Below are positions 4,486-19,176 of a stretch of DNA of 41,623 nucleotides, in pieces; within the stretch, counting starts at the first letter, position 1; each line of letters begins with the position of its first letter. The DNA is taken from the IMG/VR virus record IMGVR_UViG_3300010885_031547, positions 1-41,623 of that record. One strand, 5' to 3'. This DNA is from a virus. A model generated the notes under the pieces. That model was not told the DNA's origin, did no database searches, and worked only from the letters and a program-made list of their open reading frames with translations. A program made the position numbers and the translations under genes.

Positions 4486-4680
4486 ATGGAAACACTTGCA
4501 TTGACATTTTATGGGATCGGAGTAGTTGCCGCCATTGTTGCGGGTCTACTGAAACTGTATCGCACCGCGTATTCGCGTGGCTATGATGACGGCAAGCACT
4601 GCGGCTTCACCGAGGGGCTGTACGCTGCTGCCAAGCGGGAATCCCGCAAACAGCAGTGGCAACAGTATCATGCAGTCTAA
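4486..4680 (+). CDS. Small single-pass membrane protein, 64 aa
   Basis: Not recognised. Residues about 5-24 form one hydrophobic helix right at the N terminus (F-Y-G-I-G-V-V-A-A-I-V-A-G-L-L). A basic, Tyr/Gly-rich cytoplasmic tail follows and ends in an R-K-Q-Q-W-Q-Q segment. The ribosome site is weak (AGGG close to the ATG). Its stop overlaps the stop of the convergent minus-strand gene by three bases. It could be a holin-like or exclusion-type peptide, but a single helix with a tail is not diagnostic. Confidence 0.6.
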   Translation: METLALTFYGIGVVAAIVAGLLKLYRTAYSRGYDDGKHCGFTEGLYAAAKRESRKQQWQQYHAV

Positions 4681-5984
4681 TACACATTAAGTGATAGCGT
4701 CAGGCTTGGTTTTGTGTCTGCTGTTGATATTTCTGTATCAAGACCTGTTCTATTTTCAGATACTGTAGATTCGTTCAAGAATATTCTGATTCTATCCTTG
4801 TGGCGTGTCTCGTCTGATACCATTGCAACGGTAAAGTCTTTGGAATTGTTCACTTGTGCTTGAGTGTAGTATCTGATTTTCAATTTTTGTTCTGGAACAA
4901 GTGCTGCGGCTTCAGTTTTTGTCTCATCGGATGGATGTTCTATTTCAAGCACATACGATCCGAATGGTATTGTTGAATCAGACGCAAATTCTACCGATGT
5001 GTTATGTGTGGTTATTCCATTCGGTAGGGTGAAACCACTCAACAAAACGGAATCAGCGGATGGGCGGTCAACAACTGTGCAGATTTTTGATCCCATAGAC
5101 ACAGAATTGTTTGTGTCTGGATCGAACATTTCCAAAGTAGACCCAACAGATATAGAAAATTGAGCGGAATAGAACTGTTTCAGTCTATCGGAAGAAGACT
5201 CTTGTTGTGTAACAAGTACATTCTGTCCGCTTTCGGTCATTTGAACATACACACCTTCGGTTTTTATGCTGTTCCGATCACCAGCAGACAAGAATTTGCA
5301 GTTTTTGAGCAGTTCGTCACCCAAGAAGCCCTCCCGATGCTCCCATGAGTGAAATTGAACCGTGCCTTGCTCGCTTTCGCTGCTTTTGATCACCAATGCA
5401 AGTTGATTTGCTCCTGATGTCTGCCACAGGTGGCACTGACTAGTGATGTCAAAAGACAATTTTCCTTCAGAAATACGACCAACAGTCGTATATTGAGATA
5501 GTGACTGTTCAAAGTCTCCACCTTCTTCTATCCAGTGTGTCTCTGATAGTTCTGTTGGCTTGAACCACGAAACAGACGGGTCGATGGACGATCCAAACCT
5601 GATAAGTTTGGCTTCAAATTCTAGTTCTGATGTGGCATCAGTGTACAAGGACAGTATTGCGCGATCAATTCCGTATGATGCGCTTCCTATCTCTTGATTG
5701 ATTGCCTGTGATGGGTGAAAAAACAGAACAGTTCTGTATTTCGTGTCTCCAATCAGTCCAATTTTTGTGTAGTCTCTGTGTCTAAGTAGCAGTTCTCCGT
5801 CCTCGCTTTGTGGAAGCACGGTAAACTGTTTGGAAATAGAGTCAAACACTCTTGTTTCAGAGAGTGCAGAATTTGTTATGAATGTGTCGCTGTCTCCTGC
5901 CCCACCGAATATCTTCACCTCTACTGGTGTGTATTCGGATCTATACGATCCGCCTATGTTGTTTCGATATCGTTGAGAGAGCAT
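4677..5984 (-). CDS. Beta-rich virion protein with a DNRLRE-like domain, 435 aa
   Basis: No T4 counterpart recognised. Residues about 75-215 have the layout of DNRLRE domains: an A-I-L-S-L-Y strand, W and E residues before a W-I-E-E-G-G-D turn, then L-S-F-D-I-T-S-Q-C-H-L-W and Q-L-A-L-V-I-K-S-S. In other proteins these beta-sandwich modules occur in cell-surface and polysaccharide-related proteins. Residues 215-435 are further beta-rich sequence. The start ATG at 5984 lies 8 nt after the stop of the upstream gene, so the two are one minus-strand unit. A virion appendage or surface-binding protein is likely. The exact role is unknown. Confidence 0.7.
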   Translation of the reverse strand: MLSQRYRNNIGGSYRSEYTPVEVKIFGGAGDSDTFITNSALSETRVFDSISKQFTVLPQSEDGELLLRHRDYTKIGLIGDTKYRTVLFFHPSQAINQEIGSASYGIDRAILSLYTDATSELEFEAKLIRFGSSIDPSVSWFKPTELSETHWIEEGGDFEQSLSQYTTVGRISEGKLSFDITSQCHLWQTSGANQLALVIKSSESEQGTVQFHSWEHREGFLGDELLKNCKFLSAGDRNSIKTEGVYVQMTESGQNVLVTQQESSSDRLKQFYSAQFSISVGSTLEMFDPDTNNSVSMGSKICTVVDRPSADSVLLSGFTLPNGITTHNTSVEFASDSTIPFGSYVLEIEHPSDETKTEAAALVPEQKLKIRYYTQAQVNNSKDFTVAMVSDETRHKDRIRIFLNESTVSENRTGLDTEISTADTKPSLTLSLNVY

Positions 5985-5992
5985 TCTTCATT

Positions 5993-7930
5993 TCACGAGG
6001 CGTAGAAGGAGAATGTGAGTCCTGGTCCAGTGTTGTGGGGAGCAGTCGAAGCAGAATATGGGGGATAGAAAACATAAACTTTGTTGATGTTGTCTACCTC
6101 TATAAACATCTCTTCTCCGTGATATAGCGTGTATGCGGCGGATGTTGCTGTAAGACCGTAAGTATTAGTGTCTTGAGCAGAAATCACGCACATGAATTCG
6201 TTCGATGAAGCAGATGCACCTGTTGCTACTCTTGAGGTTTTTATTCTCACACCTGTTGAACAGGTGAATCCTGGAGCAGAATTCAATTCCGAAAGATTCT
6301 TTGCTGCGTATCCAACAAATCCTGTTCGTGACATGAATGTGGGTTGCTGCTTAACAGACAAGAGCGAAACACCGATACTCTTTTGTGTTGCAACATTAAC
6401 ATTTTCAACAACTGCATTTGTCAGCACCGACTCACTCACAGGAACGATATTGTTGTCGATTGCTGCTTTTACTAGAGCGTATAGTGACTCTGTGTAGCGG
6501 AAGTCGGTAGATCCAACAGATACATTTTGTGAATACAGTGCTGCTTTTAGAGCAGCCATGTAGTCTGTTCCGTTCTTGATGTTCGACAAAGAAGTATTCA
6601 GTGTGGATGAAAGGCTTGACAGGGATGTGTCAATGTTCGGAAGTTCAACAGGGAGAAGACCTCCGCTGAATCCCTTGACAATCACTGGACCGTTTCCTGT
6701 GTCTCCAACAACCCATACGCCAACAGTGGATGAAGTCGAACCCTTTACAGGAACAGGATTGTACGCTTCTTGAGAAATTCCAATACCTGTGCTGAAAGTG
6801 GCGTATGCGTTGAATGATATTCCCGTATTTACGAGATATACACTTACGGCAGATCCGCTCCATCCAGCACCAGTGAATCCCCCGACTCTCTCCATGTTTC
6901 CATTCTTTAGAATGGTGTTCATGTAAGTAGGAACGGTGGACTTGGATTGGGTGTCTGTTGCACCTTGTCCAACCACTGTAATAGTGTCTCGCGTGTAGTC
7001 TACACTTCGAATGTCTAGGCTAGCACCACTTACAGTAAGACCGAGAGAGGACTTAATGTTGACATTCAGCGCATTGTTTTCGCTGAAGATTGGTGCTGCG
7101 GTTGCTCCAGTGAATCCGAACAGCCCAACCGATACGGTTGAAGCCGTTCCGCCGCCATATACGGTAATCGTGTCTGATGCAGCAGTAAGACCGCGAGTAA
7201 TCACGGTTCCAAAGGTCACTCCCACAGCGGTAGCGCCAGCAACACCAAATACTCCAAGATTGGAGAAAGAAGAAACTGTGACAGGAAGAGGTTGAGATAC
7301 AGTGATTCCTACAGGATATCCGCTGCAAATTCCTTGGATGCTCACATAGTCAATTGCTGCTATGTCGCTAGTGCCACCAATTCCACCACCTTGTAGTTTT
7401 CTGATATTCAGATTGTTAGCATTTACCGTTACTTGTCCCATCGTAACGCCGATTGGAACAGCACCTGATGCGCCAGTGACAGGCATATAGTCCATAGACG
7501 CGCCAAGACCCATGATTGTCGTGGCTATGCTGTAGTAACCGCTATTTGATGTGTAGTCGTATCTCTCTAGTGCGCCATCAATGGTCACATTTAGAGTTGT
7601 GCCTGTAGCAAAACTCAGAGATATTCCTGTTGCCCCCGCAATACTTACTTGTAGAGGTGATGTATTTGCAAATGATGTTACCTGTACAGGAAGATTTCCT
7701 ATCGTTGCCGTGCTGATATCTACAGTCAACGGACTAGTATAGGAAATTCCTACTTGGGAATTTACCAGAGTTACAGGAAGACCATTGGAAGCAGTAACAT
7801 CAATGGCAGAACCACTAGCCCCGTAAACAATTTGCACTCTCTGATGATGTGCATTATTGACAAAACTGCTGGCTATGGTATAAGTAGTACCACTGGTTAC
7901 AATGTTGTAGTTGTCGCTAGTTGCTCCCAT
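5993..7930 (-). CDS. Repetitive beta-rich fibre-like protein, 645 aa
   Basis: The start has GGAG 8 nt upstream. Residues 1-420 are built from short repeats rich in Gly, Thr, Ser, Val and Ile, with motifs such as L-P-V-T-V, P-V-G-I-T-V, G-V-T-F-G and G-A-T-A-x-P, as expected of stacked beta-strand fibre or adhesin units. Residues 455-520 are a helical stretch (S-L-S-S-L-S-S-T-L-N, Y-M-A-A-L-K-A-A-L) that could be a trimeric coiled coil. The last 100 residues look like a compact beta domain ending in F-Y-A-S. It is probably a virion fibre or decoration protein encoded with the 435-aa gene downstream. No late promoter was found in the 80 bp upstream. Confidence 0.7.
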   Translation of the reverse strand: MGATSDNYNIVTSGTTYTIASSFVNNAHHQRVQIVYGASGSAIDVTASNGLPVTLVNSQVGISYTSPLTVDISTATIGNLPVQVTSFANTSPLQVSIAGATGISLSFATGTTLNVTIDGALERYDYTSNSGYYSIATTIMGLGASMDYMPVTGASGAVPIGVTMGQVTVNANNLNIRKLQGGGIGGTSDIAAIDYVSIQGICSGYPVGITVSQPLPVTVSSFSNLGVFGVAGATAVGVTFGTVITRGLTAASDTITVYGGGTASTVSVGLFGFTGATAAPIFSENNALNVNIKSSLGLTVSGASLDIRSVDYTRDTITVVGQGATDTQSKSTVPTYMNTILKNGNMERVGGFTGAGWSGSAVSVYLVNTGISFNAYATFSTGIGISQEAYNPVPVKGSTSSTVGVWVVGDTGNGPVIVKGFSGGLLPVELPNIDTSLSSLSSTLNTSLSNIKNGTDYMAALKAALYSQNVSVGSTDFRYTESLYALVKAAIDNNIVPVSESVLTNAVVENVNVATQKSIGVSLLSVKQQPTFMSRTGFVGYAAKNLSELNSAPGFTCSTGVRIKTSRVATGASASSNEFMCVISAQDTNTYGLTATSAAYTLYHGEEMFIEVDNINKVYVFYPPYSASTAPHNTGPGLTFSFYAS

Positions 7931-9300: not shown

Positions 9301-9334
9301 AGGGGCGCACTTCGGTGCGCCCCTTTCTTTTTTT
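9301..9334 (+). terminator. Strong intrinsic terminator after gp32
   Basis: AGGGGCGCAC (9301-9310) and GTGCGCCCCT (9315-9324) form a perfect 10-bp stem with a TTCG tetraloop, followed by TTCTTTTTTT. It ends gp32 transcription one base before the stop codon of the convergent tape-measure gene. It lacks a U tract in the opposite direction. Confidence 0.93.
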
Positions 9335-11543
9335 AGAACGAATACGAGGCTCTTTGCATCGTTAGTATTGTCGGCTCGTTGTTTCGTAGACGCAGATCAT
9401 CGTTGAAGTTGTTCGTGGTGTTCTGTATCTTTGTCTGCACTACCGAGTTCATAGATGGAGCAGCAGGCTTCGCTGTCCCCGCTGCTGCTGCTTTCTCTGC
9501 GTCCAATGCGTTCATCTCGTTGTTGTACTGTTGAACCATCTTTCCTAGAGATGTGTTTGGTGAAGCAGGGGCAGATATTTTTCCCTCAACCACAGATGAT
9601 TGTGATTCTCCTTGCTGTCCTGCTGCCGTAGACACCTCTGATGCCTTTGCAATTTCTCCTGCGGCTCCTTCAGCGGCTTTATCTGTCTTCTGTTCTTCTG
9701 CTCCACCAACATCAATAAGAGATCCAACACCAGGAATAGAAGACACCATATCATAAATTCGTCTTCCTCCTACTGCTTCTCCTAAAGATTCTGCAATCTT
9801 GGAGCCTACCCATTCACCTCCAAGTGTTCCAACCAGAGTTCCTATTCCTGGAATGGGAATCATTGAACCTAGAATTCCTCCACCCACAGATCCAAGAACA
9901 CTTCCAAGAACTTTTACAAGCCCAACTCCTATTTTTTCTTTCTTCTCGTCAGGTGTGATTTGAGAGTCGTTCTTGATGTTAGCCAAATCAATAGCACCCA
10001 TGCCAGCGGTGATCAATGCTCCAAGACCAGGTATGGATACTATAGCCTTCAGTATTTTTCCAGAACTAGACTTTATGGTGCTACCGATAGCCTTTGCTGG
10101 GTTCAGATTGCTCACGGCTCCAGAAACAGATCCCCATGCACGCGACAGCCATCCTCCTGCCTTTCCTGCTGTTGCTGCAATAGATGATCCCATTCCCTTT
10201 GTTGCAGAAACAACAGATGAGCCTACTGTTTTTGCAGCACCAAGAGCCTTGCCTCCTGCTTTTGCCACCATTCCACCAATAGATTTTGCATCCCGTACAA
10301 GCGGAGTATCTTTTATGAGTCCGTATGCCTTGCTGCCGATATTAGCCACAGCACCGAGAGCCTTGCCACCAAGACTTTTAGCACCAGAAACAACAGCCGA
10401 AGCCTTTCTTCCGAGTCCTCTTTGGGAAATCATAGACATTAGGTTTCCAAGAATTCCACTTTCGCCTTCTTGTTTTCCGAATCCGAGAAGTTTTGCTAGA
10501 CCAGACAGCAAGCCACCACTCTTTTGTTGGGGTTGCCCTGCCGCTGATGGGGTTTGTCTTCCAAGTGATTCTAGTTCTGCTTCTCGGTCTGATAGTTCTT
10601 TTGTTTGTGGCTTGAACTGATCCACAAGCAGTTTTCGTATTTCGGAAATTTCTTTGTAGATTGAACCTAGTGTAGAGTCTTCTCTTCCAGCCATGAGACC
10701 AGGAATATCCGAAGCACGAACCCCGCCAGGCACACCTCCACTTCGTGGAACTCTGCCACCAGAAATGTCTATGTCTCCGCTGCGCTTTCCTCTTCTAGCA
10801 ATTGACCGCTGAAGACCACCCGAATATCTTTCTAGTTCTTCTTGGGTTTCTCTTTTTTGTTTCAGGAACTCTCCTAGAATTCCACCAACAACAGGTATTT
10901 TTGAAGCCAGTCTTTCTGGAAGAGTCTTTCGGAAGGTCTGTGCTTTTTCTTTGATGAATTCCTGAAACGATGTTCGCTTCTTTAATTGCTCTTCGACAGG
11001 AGCAACGATCTCATCTAGTTTTGCTGCAATATCTGATTGTTCGCCTTGTGTTTTCTTCGCAAGTTCACGAATGAACTGTATTTTTGCGTATATTCTCTTT
11101 GCTTCATCTTGAGATGCACCGATTGAAGCCTCGGACAATTGTGTGGCTTCATCCATCAATTCACGCGCAGCGGCTGATGCTGGATCTTGTCCGACAAACC
11201 TTTGTTTGTTTTGTGATATGTACTCTTCTATGGTTGAGCGGACACCTTTTTGTCCTTCCATTCCCACAACATAATTGTCCAAATCTGATGTTTCGAATCC
11301 AAGTTCTTTTCGTCTTAGTCCAATAGATTCTAGAAGACCAATTTCTGTTTGTTGTGTTTGTGGTTGATCGCTTTCACCAGCGTTGGAAACTGGTGGCGTA
11401 GCCGCGCTTGCAACATTCATCACAGGCTCAAGTGTTGCAGTGGATGCTGGCTTTTCTGTGGACAAGAATTGCCCTAGCGAATTTCGCTTTCGAGCCGCTG
11501 CAAGTTTTTGCCTTACTGAAAGTTTTGACCTTCTTCTAGCCAT
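9333..11543 (-). CDS. Tail tape-measure-like protein (gp29 position), 736 aa
   Basis: AAAGGAG precedes the ATG. Residues 1-20 are basic. Residues 60-260 are charged and helical (coiled-coil-like, with E-E-Q-L-K-K-R and K-R-E-T-Q-E-E-L-E-R). Residues 330-480 are Gly/Ala/Ser/Lys repeats (K-S-L-G-G-K-A-L-G-A type). Residues about 495-615 are hydrophobic glycine zippers (G-L-G-A-L-I-T-A-G, L-G-S-V-G-G-G-I-L-G). Residues 640-736 are polar. Helical body plus glycine-zipper segments is the usual plan of tape-measure proteins, which fill the tail tube and cross the inner membrane at injection. The gene lies directly downstream of gp26 and its frameshift ORF, the place of lambda H. By length it would span roughly 110 nm at 1.5 angstrom per residue. 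T4 gp29 is about 590 aa. Sequence homology to gp29 is not certain. Confidence 0.65.
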   Translation of the reverse strand: MARRRSKLSVRQKLAAARKRNSLGQFLSTEKPASTATLEPVMNVASAATPPVSNAGESDQPQTQQTEIGLLESIGLRRKELGFETSDLDNYVVGMEGQKGVRSTIEEYISQNKQRFVGQDPASAAARELMDEATQLSEASIGASQDEAKRIYAKIQFIRELAKKTQGEQSDIAAKLDEIVAPVEEQLKKRTSFQEFIKEKAQTFRKTLPERLASKIPVVGGILGEFLKQKRETQEELERYSGGLQRSIARRGKRSGDIDISGGRVPRSGGVPGGVRASDIPGLMAGREDSTLGSIYKEISEIRKLLVDQFKPQTKELSDREAELESLGRQTPSAAGQPQQKSGGLLSGLAKLLGFGKQEGESGILGNLMSMISQRGLGRKASAVVSGAKSLGGKALGAVANIGSKAYGLIKDTPLVRDAKSIGGMVAKAGGKALGAAKTVGSSVVSATKGMGSSIAATAGKAGGWLSRAWGSVSGAVSNLNPAKAIGSTIKSSSGKILKAIVSIPGLGALITAGMGAIDLANIKNDSQITPDEKKEKIGVGLVKVLGSVLGSVGGGILGSMIPIPGIGTLVGTLGGEWVGSKIAESLGEAVGGRRIYDMVSSIPGVGSLIDVGGAEEQKTDKAAEGAAGEIAKASEVSTAAGQQGESQSSVVEGKISAPASPNTSLGKMVQQYNNEMNALDAEKAAAAGTAKPAAPSMNSVVQTKIQNTTNNFNDDLRLRNNEPTILTMQRASYSF

Positions 11544-11572: not shown

Positions 11573-11761
11573 TCACAGGTGCTTTTGATTGCTTACCTTG
11601 TCTTTCTCTTTTTTCAGGTGAGCAATCAGCATTTGTATGTATACCTCTCTCTCCCAAGGTATCATGCTTTCTAGTTCAGCCAGAGAGTAGCCGTGGTGTT
11701 GCAGAAGATTGAAGTTTAATTGAAAGAACGCCCCCAAGTCAGTGTGACAGAGGGCTATTGA
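11573..11761 (-). CDS. -1 frame extension of gp26 (gp51 / lambda T analogue), 62 codons
   Basis: This frame opens behind gp26 and has no usable start: the only ATG is at codon 33, and an in-frame TTG at codon 9 has no Shine-Dalgarno. Read from the slippery site it starts S-I-A-L-C-H-T-D-L-G and contains H-H-G-Y-S-L-A-E-L-E-S-M-I-P-W-E-R-E, followed by a helical Lys-rich end. A W-E-R-E-type helix after an aromatic stretch is what I expect of the small chaperone domain encoded before tape measures. The predicted fusion is gp26 residues 1-235 plus 62 aa, 297 aa in all. The TGA at 11573-11575 is 29 nt upstream of the tape-measure ATG. Confidence 0.7.
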   Translation of the reverse strand, partial: SIALCHTDLGAFFQLNFNLLQHHGYSLAELESMIPWEREVYIQMLIAHLKKEKDKVSNQKHL

Positions 11762-11767
11762 AAAAAA
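11730..11767 (-). promoter_or_regulatory. Programmed -1 frameshift signal
   Basis: On the minus strand the end of gp26 reads GAT TTT TTT CAA TAG, so a T-TTT-TTT heptamer (11767-11761) lies in the X-XXY-YYZ register. After a 5-nt spacer (CAATA) comes a hairpin: GCCCTC (11755-11750) with GGGGGC (11735-11730) and GTCA (11748-11745) with TGAC (11741-11738), triloop CAC. Slippage by -1 leads straight into the 62-codon frame. Confidence 0.75.
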
Positions 11768-12465
11768 TCAGATACGCTCTTTAGTTCCACCCTGACTGCG
11801 CTTCCACAGGAAGGGCAATTGTAATTAAAGGAGTACTTCAGTTCAGGAGATGTTTGAATGAATTCTATCAGTTTTGCGAACTGATCTGGCATCATGTTGT
11901 CTACAAAGTCAGACAGTTCTTTCGGGGATATGTCTGCTGCTTGGTGTAGTTGGTCATTCAGAACCACTGCTTCAATACACTTCTTCGCAAGTTCAAATGC
12001 CATTTCTACTTCGTCTTTGGTGTAGTCAAAATCGTGGATAGACGGGTATCGCATGATAAGCGACAGGTTGTCGTTTATTACAACTGATGTGTCGTCTGTA
12101 TTTTCTTGTTTCTTGCCTATAGTGATTTCGTCAAGTTTGATCTTGATGTTTGTTGACTTTTGGCAGTTGGTGCAGGTTACTTGTGGCTTAACTTCTTCAC
12201 CCACTGATTTGGATCGTATCTGTAAGAATGCGTATTCTGTGTCAGCAGCACACAGTTTGCGAGTGTCGAGAACACCACTGGTGCATACAGAAACCACATT
12301 CCGCATGGCATCATTGATCTGATTTGGATTTTTGGACTGTAAAGCAACAAGCAGTATCTTTTCTTCCTTAACCACAAACGGTCGGAACTTTACCGTTTGA
12401 TTAGAAACGGGAAGCGTCATGGTGTACTGTGGAAGTGAAGCATTCTGTAGATTCAGGGTAGTCAT
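11755..12465 (-). CDS. 26: Baseplate hub / tail chaperone protein gp26
   Basis: It matches the T4 gp26 family (T4 baseplate protein domain): L-P-V-S-N-Q-T-V-K-F-R-P-F-V-V-K-E-E-K-I near the N terminus, then D-T-E-Y-A-F-L-Q-I-R-S-K-S-V-G-E. A split zinc ribbon follows, C98-x2-C101 and C217-x2-C220. The length of 236 aa compares with 208 in T4. T4 gp26 is needed for central hub assembly. Here the gene also sits where lambda has the G chaperone, between a tube-like gene and the tape measure, and ends in a frameshift signal. A late promoter (GATAAATA) ends 25 nt upstream of the ATG. Confidence 0.88.
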   Translation of the reverse strand: MTTLNLQNASLPQYTMTLPVSNQTVKFRPFVVKEEKILLVALQSKNPNQINDAMRNVVSVCTSGVLDTRKLCAADTEYAFLQIRSKSVGEEVKPQVTCTNCQKSTNIKIKLDEITIGKKQENTDDTSVVINDNLSLIMRYPSIHDFDYTKDEVEMAFELAKKCIEAVVLNDQLHQAADISPKELSDFVDNMMPDQFAKLIEFIQTSPELKYSFNYNCPSCGSAVRVELKSVSDFFQ

Positions 12466-12490: not shown

Positions 12491-12498
12491 TATTTATC
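12491..12498 (-). promoter_or_regulatory. T4-type late promoter GATAAATA (minus strand)
   Basis: It reads GATAAATA from 12498 to 12491, overlaps the TAA stop of the tube-like gene, and ends 25 nt before the gp26 ATG at 12465. Seven of eight positions match the T4 late consensus. Confidence 0.75.
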
Positions 12499-13234
12499 GT
12501 CTTATTCTTGTGGGTGCGACACGATTCATCAGGGAGAACGCGGTTTCTGGATCGTATATACCGTTAACTGTTCCATTCTCTCCTACCCTGTAAATTTTTC
12601 CATCTGGACCGTTCACGAATCTTTGGACTTGTTCTTGTGGAGCAGACTGCACAGAAGGCGATACAGATACAGCAGGGTTCACACCTGGTCCGATGTACTG
12701 CGCTGTGTACTTTCTGAAAGACAGCGTGATGTCTTGTCTCATTATCTCATTGTCTTTTTCGTAGCCTAGTTGTATGTCACCCAGTGCTTTGGGGTATACC
12801 TCTTCAACTATGAATTTGTGAGTAGCAAAGTCATTCTTGGTGATGACGCTTATTTCCATGTTGGAGATATAGTCTTCATAATACGCAAATTTATAGTTTG
12901 ATGGACTAGAAATGAGGCTCATCCATGTTTCAAAAAATGCTCGCTCTCGTAGATCAGCAGACAACATGACAGATAGGTTTAGTTCTCCACTATAGATTTG
13001 CTCGTATGGCATATTCCTAGCAGGACCATACAGGCGATACGGTGTGGTAGAGAATGATCTGCCTGGTATTGTGGCAGAATCGCATCTAATCATGATCTGT
13101 CGAAGGTCTTGGGAATCTTTTGTTGGGAATGTTTTGGGGTAATTAACAAGAACCTCGTACCTGTTGTTGTACGCTAATCCTGTTTGGGATATTGAATTTA
13201 TCAGTTCGTTTATGTTTGATGGGAGAAAGGTCAT
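12494..13234 (-). CDS. Tail-tube-fold protein (gp19/gp54 type), 246 aa
   Basis: Residues 1-185 follow the tube-protein pattern of T4-like phages: a Y-N-N-R-Y-E-V-L-V strand, the P-G-R-S-F loop, Y-R-L-Y-G-P-A-R-N-M-P-Y-E, Y-S-G-E-L-N-L-S, R-E-R-A-F-F-E-T-W and the E-E-V-Y-P-K-A-L-G-D-I element before the last strands. Residues 186-246 are a Pro/Gln-rich extension. T4 gp19 is 163 aa and gp54 320 aa, so by length this could be the tube initiator gp54 or a tube protein. AGGA precedes the ATG, 2 bp after the neighbouring gene. Its position before gp26 and the tape measure is that of lambda V. Confidence 0.65.
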   Translation of the reverse strand: MTFLPSNINELINSISQTGLAYNNRYEVLVNYPKTFPTKDSQDLRQIMIRCDSATIPGRSFSTTPYRLYGPARNMPYEQIYSGELNLSVMLSADLRERAFFETWMSLISSPSNYKFAYYEDYISNMEISVITKNDFATHKFIVEEVYPKALGDIQLGYEKDNEIMRQDITLSFRKYTAQYIGPGVNPAVSVSPSVQSAPQEQVQRFVNGPDGKIYRVGENGTVNGIYDPETAFSLMNRVAPTRIRR

Positions 13235-14290: not shown

Positions 14291-15817
14291 ATGCCAATAC
14301 CCTCAAATCCATTTCCTTCGACTCCACCTAGCGGAATAGTCACCTCTAGCGGTCGTCAGTTTGCCGCTACAAACAAGACTAGTCGCGTTTCTAGAGAACT
14401 GTTTAACCAGCAACAACAGGACGGGCTTCTTCGTGCGCTAGAGGGAACTCCCAAACTTGAGCGAGGCTCTAGAAGCCGACCAAGTGTTTTAAAATATCCT
14501 GTTGATATCGGGACAGGTGATGTTCCCCATGTAATGCAATTCAAGGTTTTTTGGAGATGGGAAAACAAAGACCTCAAAGAACAGATGGCTAGCGGACTGA
14601 ATGCTGCTAAACTCGAATCCGAAAAGAAGATTGGTGAGTTGTCAACCCTTGCAGGGCTTATTCAAAACGGCAGTCTCACAAAGGAAATGCTTGAGCAGAG
14701 TGGCTTGCCGCGAGAAAATATCGCCGCTCTAAAGGAACTAGCAAATAGTAGTGAGTTGCTAAAAATCGTTGACCCATCAATCAAGGACAATCTGGCAACC
14801 CTGTTGCAGACCAATCCAGGCAAAGCAAAAGACATCATGGAGCAGACTATCAGTTCCTATCAGGCTCGACTGTCGAGCATTGAGTCTGAACTGAACGGTT
14901 CTTTTGGCAAGGTTGGATTGGATGAACAGGAGAGGCTTCTGATTCAAAATAGACTGAGTGAGGACATAGCAGGAACGAGTGAAGGGCAGTCTGCTATAAC
15001 AGGAGCAGGAACAGGTGCTATTGCAGGTGGACTACTTGGTTTGCTTTTTGGTGGAGCAAAAGGAGCCGCTATCGGAGCCGCAGGCGGTGCGGCAGCGGGT
15101 GCGGTTGTTGCTCCTCTAGCAGTTGCTGGAGCAAAGGCTTATCAAAATCAGGCAGTGTATGACCAGATGGTGTCTTTGTACCTTCCGTATTGCACAAAGA
15201 TAAACAACGAAGACACTTTTCAGTACGAGGATTCTAGTCAGACTGCTGCGGGTGCTGCCTTCGATTTTTTGGGAAGACCAATTGAAACTGCCGCGCAGGG
15301 TATAGAGGTGGGAGTAGAAAAGGCAGCGGGGGCTGTTGGTGCAGCAGGAGCAGGCGCACTTGCTCGCGGAAAAGTAGTCAATCCTAGACTAGAAAAACTG
15401 TTTCGTCAGAAAGACTTTCGTAATTTCTCTTTCAGTTGGGATTTTTATCCTAAGACCAAAGAAGAAACGGAAGCAATACGAAATATCATAGAGACATTCC
15501 GTTATCACGCTCATCCTGCATCGGATGATACTAATGCTGGAGAGGGAGAATCCAAAGTTGAGGTGGTTCTTCGTGTTCCTGCTGAGTTTGAAATTCGTTT
15601 CTTGTCTAGTAATCCCAATCCAAACATTGCAGGATTTTTGGAGAACGAATACATCCCGAAGATCGGTAGATGTGCATTGAACAGCATTTCGGTGGACTAC
15701 ACATCAAACTCAGTTTTCAGTTCTTTTGTTGACAACTCACCCACCGCAATCACACTAACACTACAATTCAGCGAAATGGGTGTGCTGACAAGAGAAGTAG
15801 TAGATAAGGGCTTCTGA
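14291..15817 (+). CDS. 48: Baseplate tail-tube cap gp48
   Basis: The C-terminal 140 residues carry the gp48 signature: F-S-F-S-W-D-F-Y-P-K-T-K-E-E-T-E-A-I, a basic helix, P-A-E-F-E-I-R-F, I-G-R-C-A-L-N-S-I-S-V-D-Y, and the end S-P-T-A-I-T-L-T-L-Q-F-S-E-M-G-V-L-T-R. In T4, gp48 caps the baseplate and nucleates the tube. At 508 aa it is longer than T4 gp48 (364). The extra part is a coiled-coil-like segment (95-215) and an Ala/Gly-zipper stretch (about 236-280) that looks membrane-active. Its TGA overlaps the next ATG (TGATG), indicating coupled translation. Confidence 0.8.
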   Translation: MPIPSNPFPSTPPSGIVTSSGRQFAATNKTSRVSRELFNQQQQDGLLRALEGTPKLERGSRSRPSVLKYPVDIGTGDVPHVMQFKVFWRWENKDLKEQMASGLNAAKLESEKKIGELSTLAGLIQNGSLTKEMLEQSGLPRENIAALKELANSSELLKIVDPSIKDNLATLLQTNPGKAKDIMEQTISSYQARLSSIESELNGSFGKVGLDEQERLLIQNRLSEDIAGTSEGQSAITGAGTGAIAGGLLGLLFGGAKGAAIGAAGGAAAGAVVAPLAVAGAKAYQNQAVYDQMVSLYLPYCTKINNEDTFQYEDSSQTAAGAAFDFLGRPIETAAQGIEVGVEKAAGAVGAAGAGALARGKVVNPRLEKLFRQKDFRNFSFSWDFYPKTKEETEAIRNIIETFRYHAHPASDDTNAGEGESKVEVVLRVPAEFEIRFLSSNPNPNIAGFLENEYIPKIGRCALNSISVDYTSNSVFSSFVDNSPTAITLTLQFSEMGVLTREVVDKGF

Positions 15818-16744: not shown

Positions 16745-18076
16745 ATGGCAGACGGACAAGGACACGGTGGATCAGCACTAAAGGCGGGTGATTACAAACT
16801 AGAAAAGTTTGCGATGTACTCTTTGGTGAACGGAAGTACTATTGATCTGTCTAATATGTTTCGATATATTGAGATATACGAAGACATTTTCTCTCCGTAT
16901 ATCACAGCCAAATTGCACATTGAAGACGCATCAAATTTTCCTGAACGGTTTCCTATCATTGGTCAGGAAAAGGTTGAGTTGTCTTTCAAGTCAGATATCA
17001 ATAGCCTTCCTCTTGTTGAATTGGTGTTTCGCGTCTACAAACTGGACGGACAGCAGATCAGCGAAACTGGAAAGACGCAGACCTATGTTTTGCACTTGAT
17101 GAGTGAAGCAGGATACTTTAATTTCTCGGAGTACTGTGGATACGCTTTGAATGGCAACACAACAGAGATGGTGAAAACAATTCTTCACAAGCATTTTCCT
17201 TCTTCTGTGTGGAAAGACAAAGTAGAGGTAGAAGACAGTGCGGACAACTATTCGTTCGTGTTGCCTCGTTCGTTTACTCCCTTAAAAGCGATATCGTGGT
17301 TGGCATCTAAAGCATATTCCAAAACAGGTTCCGATTACAGTCCGTACTTGTTCTATGAAACTTTGGATGGTCACAAATTCAAGAGTATATCGAAGATCAT
17401 AGAGGACGGTTCTCGTTCTCCTGTAAAGTATGTGTATACACAGGCAAACATACCACTGTTGGAGGGAGAGAAGGAAAATCTAGGATTCAACAGCATTCTT
17501 CCGAGCAGATACCATAAAATTCAACAGATAGAGGAGATGAGTCGATTTGATTCTGCCTCTAACATAATGAATGGGGTAGTGTCTTCTATTCTGGTTGTTC
17601 ATGATCTGATGCGTAAGGAATTCCGAGAGTCTGAACTCTTTGAGCGAGATGTTTTCTCTGCAATGAAAAAACTCGGAACTGAATCACACTTCAGAGACAC
17701 AGATCCAGAGTCTTCTCGTGTTTTAGATAAGGGGGCGGCGTACTACTACCTACCAACAACTCCCTATACTGTATACAGCAATTACAATCCTGTGATAGAC
17801 AACTCTCAAGTAGAGAGTCTTTTCCTCAAGAGGAATTACCACATGAATTCTTTTCTGACACAGAGAATCATGATTCAGGTGTTTGGAGACAGTCGCCGTA
17901 GAGTTGGAGACATAGTTTCTATATCAGTTCCGAAACCTCAGTCTGATGTCATGTATCAATACGATAGGGACGACAAAAACATCAGCGGAGAGTACATGAT
18001 CACTAGCATCAAGCACAGCATATCGGGTTCTTACAGTTGCAAATACGAACTTTCTAGAAACTGCATGGGGGTCTGA
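16745..18076 (+). CDS. Baseplate hub protein, gp27-like, 443 aa
   Basis: The N-terminal region reads like gp27-type hub proteins: M-F-R-Y-I-E-I-Y-E-D-I-F-S-P-Y-I-T-A-K-L, D-A-S-N-F-P-E-R-F-P-I-I-G-Q-E-K-V-E-L-S-F. Residues 200-330 and the C-terminal V-G-D-I-V-S-I-S-V-P-K-P and G-E-Y-M-I-T-S-I-K-H-S-I strands are also beta-barrel-like. In T4, a gp27 trimer joins tube to spike and holds gp5, and here gp5 follows directly with overlapping TGATG. T4 gp27 is 391 aa. Homology is judged by pattern and place. Confidence 0.75.
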   Translation: MADGQGHGGSALKAGDYKLEKFAMYSLVNGSTIDLSNMFRYIEIYEDIFSPYITAKLHIEDASNFPERFPIIGQEKVELSFKSDINSLPLVELVFRVYKLDGQQISETGKTQTYVLHLMSEAGYFNFSEYCGYALNGNTTEMVKTILHKHFPSSVWKDKVEVEDSADNYSFVLPRSFTPLKAISWLASKAYSKTGSDYSPYLFYETLDGHKFKSISKIIEDGSRSPVKYVYTQANIPLLEGEKENLGFNSILPSRYHKIQQIEEMSRFDSASNIMNGVVSSILVVHDLMRKEFRESELFERDVFSAMKKLGTESHFRDTDPESSRVLDKGAAYYYLPTTPYTVYSNYNPVIDNSQVESLFLKRNYHMNSFLTQRIMIQVFGDSRRRVGDIVSISVPKPQSDVMYQYDRDDKNISGEYMITSIKHSISGSYSCKYELSRNCMGV

Positions 18077-19176
18077 TGAAAGGATTTTTAGGAAAAGAAG
18101 GTTTTGTGTGGTGGCACGGGGTTGTAGAAGACACCGCAGATCCGTTGCAACTTGGTAGATGCAGAGTTCGCGTTTATGGTTTTCATGTAGAAAACAAGAC
18201 AGAACTTCCCACATCTGCTTTGCCTTGGGCGTATCCCATGCAGCCTCTTACGAGTGCTGCTTTGTCTGGAATCGGTCAGTCTCCTACTGGTCTGTTGGTG
18301 GGATCTCATGTCTTTGGTTTTTTCCGTGATGGTGACGAAGCCCAAGATCCCGTGATGATTGGTTCGTTTGGTGGTGTTGCTATTAATGCAGCAGATACAA
18401 CCAAAGGATTTCATGATCCATCTGGAAAATATCCTGCAAAGGCTTCGGATGTTTTGGCAAAGGTTTTTCCTCTTGGTGTATCCGTTGTGGGAGAACAAGA
18501 CACCAATCGTCTAGCCAGAAACAACGATGCCAATCAGATGAAGTCTACGGTGGCTGCATATAAAACGGAAACGGTTCAGGCAGAAGTGTACAGCACTCCC
18601 ACGATGGCTGGTGGATTTACTTGGGCAGAACCGCCTACTCCGTATGCAGCACAGTATCCAAAGAACCATGTGCGATACACCGAAAGTGGTCATGTGGAGG
18701 AATTTGACGATACCAGAGGTGCAGAACGAATTCATCAATTCCATCAATCAGGAACCTTTACCGAAGTAGGAAACGGGTGGAAAACCAATCCTGATGGCAC
18801 TCGCGTACAGCGCATCGTTGGAGATGACTACGAGATTGTTCACGGCAACAAGAAGGTGTATATCAAGGGTGATGCAGGATTAAACTTGGTGGTTGATGGG
18901 GCTATGAATCTAACCATTAATGGTGGTGGCAACATTCAGATTAACGGAAACACAAATATTCTCGCAAACGATGATGTGAATCTTCAGATTGAAGGCAGTC
19001 TAAAGGCTTCAGGTAAGACTATTGAGTTCTATGCAGACGGAGACATTGGATTCTCTGGACGCACCATTTCGTTCATCACCGATAGTAACATTATGGTCAT
19101 GCAACAGGGTAAGCGAATTGAAGTTAACTCTGGCGAAGCGGTGTTGCGTCCAAAGAGAGTGAATGTCAAGGACTAA
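18076..19176 (+). CDS. 5: Baseplate spike protein gp5 without a lysozyme domain
   Basis: Residues 1-105 are the gp5/gpV OB fold (W-W-H-G-V-V-E-D-T-A-D-P-L-Q-L-G-R-C-R-V-R-V-Y-G, L-P-W-A-Y-P-M, V-F-G-F-F-R-D-G, Q-D-P-V-M-I-G-S). Residues 190-225 hold the N-H-V-R-Y-T-E-S-G-H and H-Q-F-H-Q-S-G-T linker motif. Residues 230-350 are regular 8-residue beta-helix repeats (N-L-x-I-N-G, N-I-Q-I-N-G) as in the T4 needle. T4 gp5 carries a 160-residue lysozyme between these parts. Here that space is only about 85 residues, with no recognisable catalytic pattern, so peptidoglycan cutting must come from elsewhere if it occurs. Confidence 0.85.
   Translation: MKGFLGKEGFVWWHGVVEDTADPLQLGRCRVRVYGFHVENKTELPTSALPWAYPMQPLTSAALSGIGQSPTGLLVGSHVFGFFRDGDEAQDPVMIGSFGGVAINAADTTKGFHDPSGKYPAKASDVLAKVFPLGVSVVGEQDTNRLARNNDANQMKSTVAAYKTETVQAEVYSTPTMAGGFTWAEPPTPYAAQYPKNHVRYTESGHVEEFDDTRGAERIHQFHQSGTFTEVGNGWKTNPDGTRVQRIVGDDYEIVHGNKKVYIKGDAGLNLVVDGAMNLTINGGGNIQINGNTNILANDDVNLQIEGSLKASGKTIEFYADGDIGFSGRTISFITDSNIMVMQQGKRIEVNSGEAVLRPKRVNVKD

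Follow-up and report, generated by a model that had tools for sequence, protein, structure and literature searches.

A gp26-like gene of the virus represented by IMG/VR contig IMGVR_UViG_3300010885_031547 very probably yields two tail assembly chaperones, one short and one long, through programmed -1 frameshifting of the lambda G/GT type. We analysed the whole of this contig (41,623 bases, hereafter the window), whose tail chaperone genes lie on the minus strand. The gene (11755..12465, minus strand) encodes a short product of 236 aa, the counterpart of lambda G (TAC-N), which in profile searches matched PF12322 (T4_baseplate) at 2.1e-56, with 191.5 bits against a curated cut-off of 24.5, and PHROG 150 at 1.6e-55. 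It follows the gene of a tail tube or tube-initiator-like protein (12494..13234, minus strand; PHROG 45, 1.7e-37) and precedes a 736-aa ORF (9333..11543, minus strand), for which profile searches returned no family match. Since this ORF stands directly after the chaperone gene, and since a tape measure is annotated just downstream of the chaperone gene in the relative HTVC008M, it is probably the tape measure gene. The PF12322 and PHROG 634 profiles found no second member within the window, and a single gp26-like gene was present in a 95-kb near relative (L003).

Elsewhere in the window, a gp48-like tail tube cap protein of 508 aa (14291-15817, plus strand) matched gp48 only in its C-terminal part, its middle containing a glycine-zipper stretch and a weak match to a tape-measure profile. 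A gp5-like hub/lysozyme protein (18076-19176, plus strand) had only 366 aa, matched PHROG 430 (868 positions) in two pieces and may be a gp5-like protein without the lysozyme domain. No PHROG family matched the two ORFs of 435 and 645 aa (4677-7930, minus strand) that lie downstream of the tail genes.

The gp26 gene ends in ...GTA TCT GAT TTT TTT CAA TAG, so that a run of seven T's (11767-11761, minus strand) forms the heptamer T TTT TTT in X XXY YYZ register across the codons GAT TTT TTT; every coordinate given for this region in a preliminary description of the contig agreed with the sequence and its ORFs. From 11761 the -1 frame is open for 62 codons and terminates with TGA at 11575-11573 (extension 11573..11761, minus strand); the next ATG, at 11543, comes 29 nt on and opens the presumed tape measure ORF. 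The predicted fusion, the counterpart of lambda GT (TAC-NC), has 235 + 62 = 297 aa, with a -1 reading of F F S I A L C H T D L... over the junction. The same description had held that this frame has no usable start of its own, and indeed the sole in-frame start with most of the domain still ahead of it, TTG 11737, lacks an upstream SD-like sequence. By the proposed mechanism, a minority of ribosomes at GAU UUU UUU would slip back one base in tandem on both Phe codons (U UUU UUU), bypass the stop codon two codons on and read the -1 frame into the 297-aa long form, which would carry the C-terminal domain found in T4 gp51. If lambda G/GT is a guide, the tape measure protein would be coated by many copies of the short form and few of the long one, which together would bring in tail tube subunits, and neither form would stay in the virion.

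To follow this junction through related phages we relied on protein searches, a DNA-level search of the phage collection having found no relatives. The first IMG/VR scan yielded 79 relatives, 32-94% identical, nearly all of which had a run of six or seven T's directly before the gp26 stop and the gp51 domain in the -1 frame. Named phages were added (the cyanophages and their kin P-SSM4, HTVC008M and Melnitz; Sinorhizobium phiM9 and phiN3, Pseudomonas pf16, Stenotrophomonas Moby, a Nitratidesulfovibrio phage, Aeromonas ZPAH1, KVP40-like Vibrio phages and Agrobacterium Atu_ph07), together with two further IMG/VR scans, one of which used the junction Phe-Phe peptide pattern and is thus biased towards Phe-Phe, not towards its codons. 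Seven very distant gp26 proteins, when aligned, offered no stretch suited to a collection scan. In all, T TTT TTN in X XXY YYZ register was found together with the -1 domain in 251 genes, which formed 107 clusters at 70% identity. The in-register heptamer of six T's plus any base stood at the junction in 107 of 107 lineages, against 16 occurrences at the 24,172 remaining codon steps of these genes. Moreover, the codon before Phe-Phe ended in T in 100% of cases at the junction (64% of D, S, N and H codons elsewhere), and the first junction Phe was TTT in 100% (68% of Phe codons elsewhere in these genes); the product of the two rates, raised to the power of 107, is about 2e-39, which serves only as a guide because it treats the lineages as independent. 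In the clade of the window, GAT TTT TT(T/C) was unchanged in all 40 members; all 20 third positions just upstream varied.

Homopolymers are error-prone, and the T run is one, so that a single gene split by an indel or a sequencing error might look like the junction described here. The same run and the same relation of frames recurred, however, in independent metagenomes and in finished isolate genomes, and two relatives (L002 and L003, 94% aa identity, from other metagenomes) had an identical run of seven T's. The relatives thus refute a single gene broken by homopolymer error, and the probability left to this explanation is negligible; an assembly error is unlikely.

T runs can also cause polymerase slippage, and with six or seven T's at the junction the polymerase might stutter and produce mRNAs with one U more or less, some of which would join the two frames. 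Against this stands the length of the run, since 71 of the 107 lineages have six T's only (T TTT TTC), which is short for slippage by a bacterial polymerase. In addition, the run always read NNT TTT TTN, and none of the genes with the -1 domain had a run of six T's in another register; tandem tRNA slippage needs this register, whereas polymerase slippage does not. We therefore regard a transcriptional origin of the long form as improbable.

Independent translation of the 62-aa domain as a separate gp51, either with TTG 11737 as start codon or through reinitiation once gp26 has terminated, agrees with the annotation of a separate ORF in P-SSM4, phiM9, phiN3, HTVC008M, Melnitz and others, and with the sequence TAATG at the junction of some Ackermannviridae. 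Starts are not conserved, however: 45 of the 107 lineages lack any ATG, GTG or TTG in the first 16 codons of the -1 frame, and a start codon with an SD-like site nearby was present in one lineage of 107. Conserved residues of the -1 domain begin at once (L in 74% of the 107 lineages at position 4, H in 74% at position 6 and L in 92% at position 9) and thus precede the usual first ATG, which argues against a separately started domain. Consistently with this, variation in the window clade by codon position (4, 3 and 7 of 9 before TTG 11737; 31, 19 and 45 of 54 after it) fits coding in the -1 frame on both sides of that codon. Finally, the domain is fused to a gp26-like domain in T4 gp51, and a separate gp51 offers no explanation for the invariant T run in its register. 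Separate initiation is thus still less probable than transcriptional slippage, and ribosomal -1 frameshifting is the reading we retain.

A downstream stimulatory RNA structure is common at -1 frameshift sites and is not obligatory. The window has a possible one, a 10-bp hairpin (11755-11730, minus strand; GCCCUC-U-GUCA-CAC-UGAC-UU-GGGGGC, that is 6 bp, an internal loop, 4 bp and a CAC loop) separated from the heptamer by the 5-nt spacer CAATA. Folded with the spacer and downstream bases, it had a minimum free energy of -14.3 kcal/mol (z = -3.4 against dinucleotide shuffles). Among 17 close relatives, 86% of pair cells were kept, with one compensatory change and hence minimal support from covariation; one relative (L037) had a different hairpin instead and another (L040) had none. 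Over 106 lineages, the 50 nt 3' of the site folded slightly better than shuffles, with a mean z of -0.75 against 0.04 in a control stretch, and the shape of the hairpin was not conserved across the family. The hairpin proposed in the preliminary description is kept in most members of the window clade, but is not a family-wide feature, and a structural stimulator likely occurs in places and not in general.

We then considered the relation of the 62-aa domain to T4 gp51. The domain matched PHROG 634, the 'baseplate hub assembly catalyst' family of gp51, at 4e-23, as well as the last 40 positions of PHROG 150. Conversely, a profile built from -1 domains without any T4-type phages found the tested T4-type gp51 proteins at 1.4e-5 or lower, shuffles doing no better than 0.6. 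Residues 1-201 of T4 gp51 themselves matched PF12322 (3.9e-52), and the end of the protein matched PHROG 634. T4 gp51 is a paralogue of T4 gp26 in which the C-terminal domain follows a gp26-like domain, and it is therefore gp51 as a whole to which the 297-aa fusion corresponds. The earlier proposal that a gp51-like function is delivered as a gp26 fusion accordingly stands as to the gp51-like nature of the extension and needs amending as to the partner, since T4 gp51 is not an unrelated protein but a gp26 paralogue with the same C-terminal domain. Judged by sequence, T4 gp26 has the layout of the short form and T4 gp51 that of the predicted frameshift fusion.

T4 carries the two genes in divergent orientation, separated by 50 bp. 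In RB43 (L095:6001-7294, plus strand), unlike T4, the 51-like and 26-like genes share a strand, lie in tandem and overlap by 8 nt, and in another record (L108:2482-3255, plus strand; IMGVR_UViG_2974754850_000001) a T4-type gp51 is split into two ORFs by a disruption or a sequencing error. T4-type gp26 genes (T4, Mosigvirus, Aeromonas 31, Acinetobacter phages and others) have neither heptamer nor extension. The place of Phe-Phe is mostly kept in them and written TTC TTT, or is changed; the T run is thus not forced by amino-acid constraint alone. KVP40-like phages and ZPAH1, which also belong to Straboviridae, retain the frameshift layout. The gp26 of the KVP40-like phages (L086, L094) is about 50 aa longer owing to a mid-protein insertion, its profile matches falling in two overlapping pieces.

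Among single-copy genes, only those of Ackermannviridae and of two Vibrio phages (K413 and VPALA) lacked the heptamer. The -1 domain is present in them, mostly unannotated, and follows a reduced junction NTTTTC (ATT, GTT or CTT followed by TTC) at the gp26 stop (L087, L110-L124, L285-L289 and L084), as at the Ackermannviridae site GAG ATT TTC ATT TAA; at such a junction only the second tRNA re-pairs well. The gp26 of K413 had no relatives in IMG/VR.

A tree of the PF12322 domain separated frameshift genes, T4-type gp26 and T4-type gp51; it was a quick tree with long branches and a misplaced or divergent RB43 gp26, which leaves the root and a sister relation of gp26 and gp51 unsettled. Given the distribution of the two layouts, and the fact that G/GT frameshifting is widespread among other tailed phages (PMC5009743), we infer that the frameshift state is ancestral and that duplication replaced it. 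In the T4 branch of Straboviridae, gene 26 would have lost the slippery codons and its paralogue, gene 51, would have kept the long form. On balance we favour a history in which the ancestor slipped, the T4 branch exchanged slippage for genes 26 and 51, and the reduced NTTTTC serves as the site of shifting in Ackermannviridae and some Vibrio phages.

The AlphaFold model of gp26 had a pLDDT of 93.5, and the HK97 tail assembly chaperone 2OB9 was the most probable among the 50 PDB matches listed, although this match was weak (probability 0.33; E 3.5, not significant; rmsd 3.9; TM 0.51 over the target). The model of the gp51 type had no chaperone among the 50 matches listed, and a search by sequence found no solved structure.

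As with lambda gpG/gpGT, the predicted -1 frameshift lies before the tape measure gene, a presumed one in the window; the site of the window (U UUU UUU) is not that of lambda, and gp26 is longer than gpG and belongs to the PF12322 family. With T4 gp26/gp51, which are baseplate hub assembly chaperones, the window shares the PF12322 domain and, in the 62-aa extension, a homologue of the gp51 C-terminus, but it has one gene with a slippery site where T4 has two divergent genes without one. The same slippery register and -1 domain occur in Kyanoviridae cyanophages, HTVC008M/Melnitz, KVP40-like phages, phiM9/phiN3, pf16 and Moby, in which annotations usually make the domain a gp51 ORF of its own or pass over it. 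Another myovirus -1 frameshift, at the tail chaperone locus of Vandenendeviridae/Andersonviridae, uses a T-rich GTTTTT, a motif shorter than that of the window (PMC12846349).

Several published observations bear on this arrangement. Sullivan 2010 noted that the gp51 of cyanophages is without the first ~200 aa of T4 gp51 (PMC3037559), and a 2016 recoding review described G-T frameshifting as conserved across long-tailed phages 'except T4'. Tail chaperone genes of T4-like phages were already identified by Vladimirov et al. 2022 (Virology, doi 10.1016/j.virol.2021.11.003), and a 2025 paper (PMC12846349) refers to that article when it mentions polyT slippery sites in these genes; the replacement of frameshifting by duplication may already be described in the 2022 article. 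New here are an exact-register survey of this breadth, the use of T4-type gp26 as a codon control, a test of start codons and the reduced site of Ackermannviridae.

The arrangement is general among T4-like phages outside the close kin of T4; it is of a known kind, and the contig is a new and well-supported member of it. For the annotation of hundreds of T4-like genomes, this means that what now stands as a free 'gp51', as a hypothetical ORF or as nothing at all should be corrected to an expected frameshifted fusion. The two layouts further suggest a natural experiment, the exchange of a fixed frameshift ratio for two separately controlled genes.
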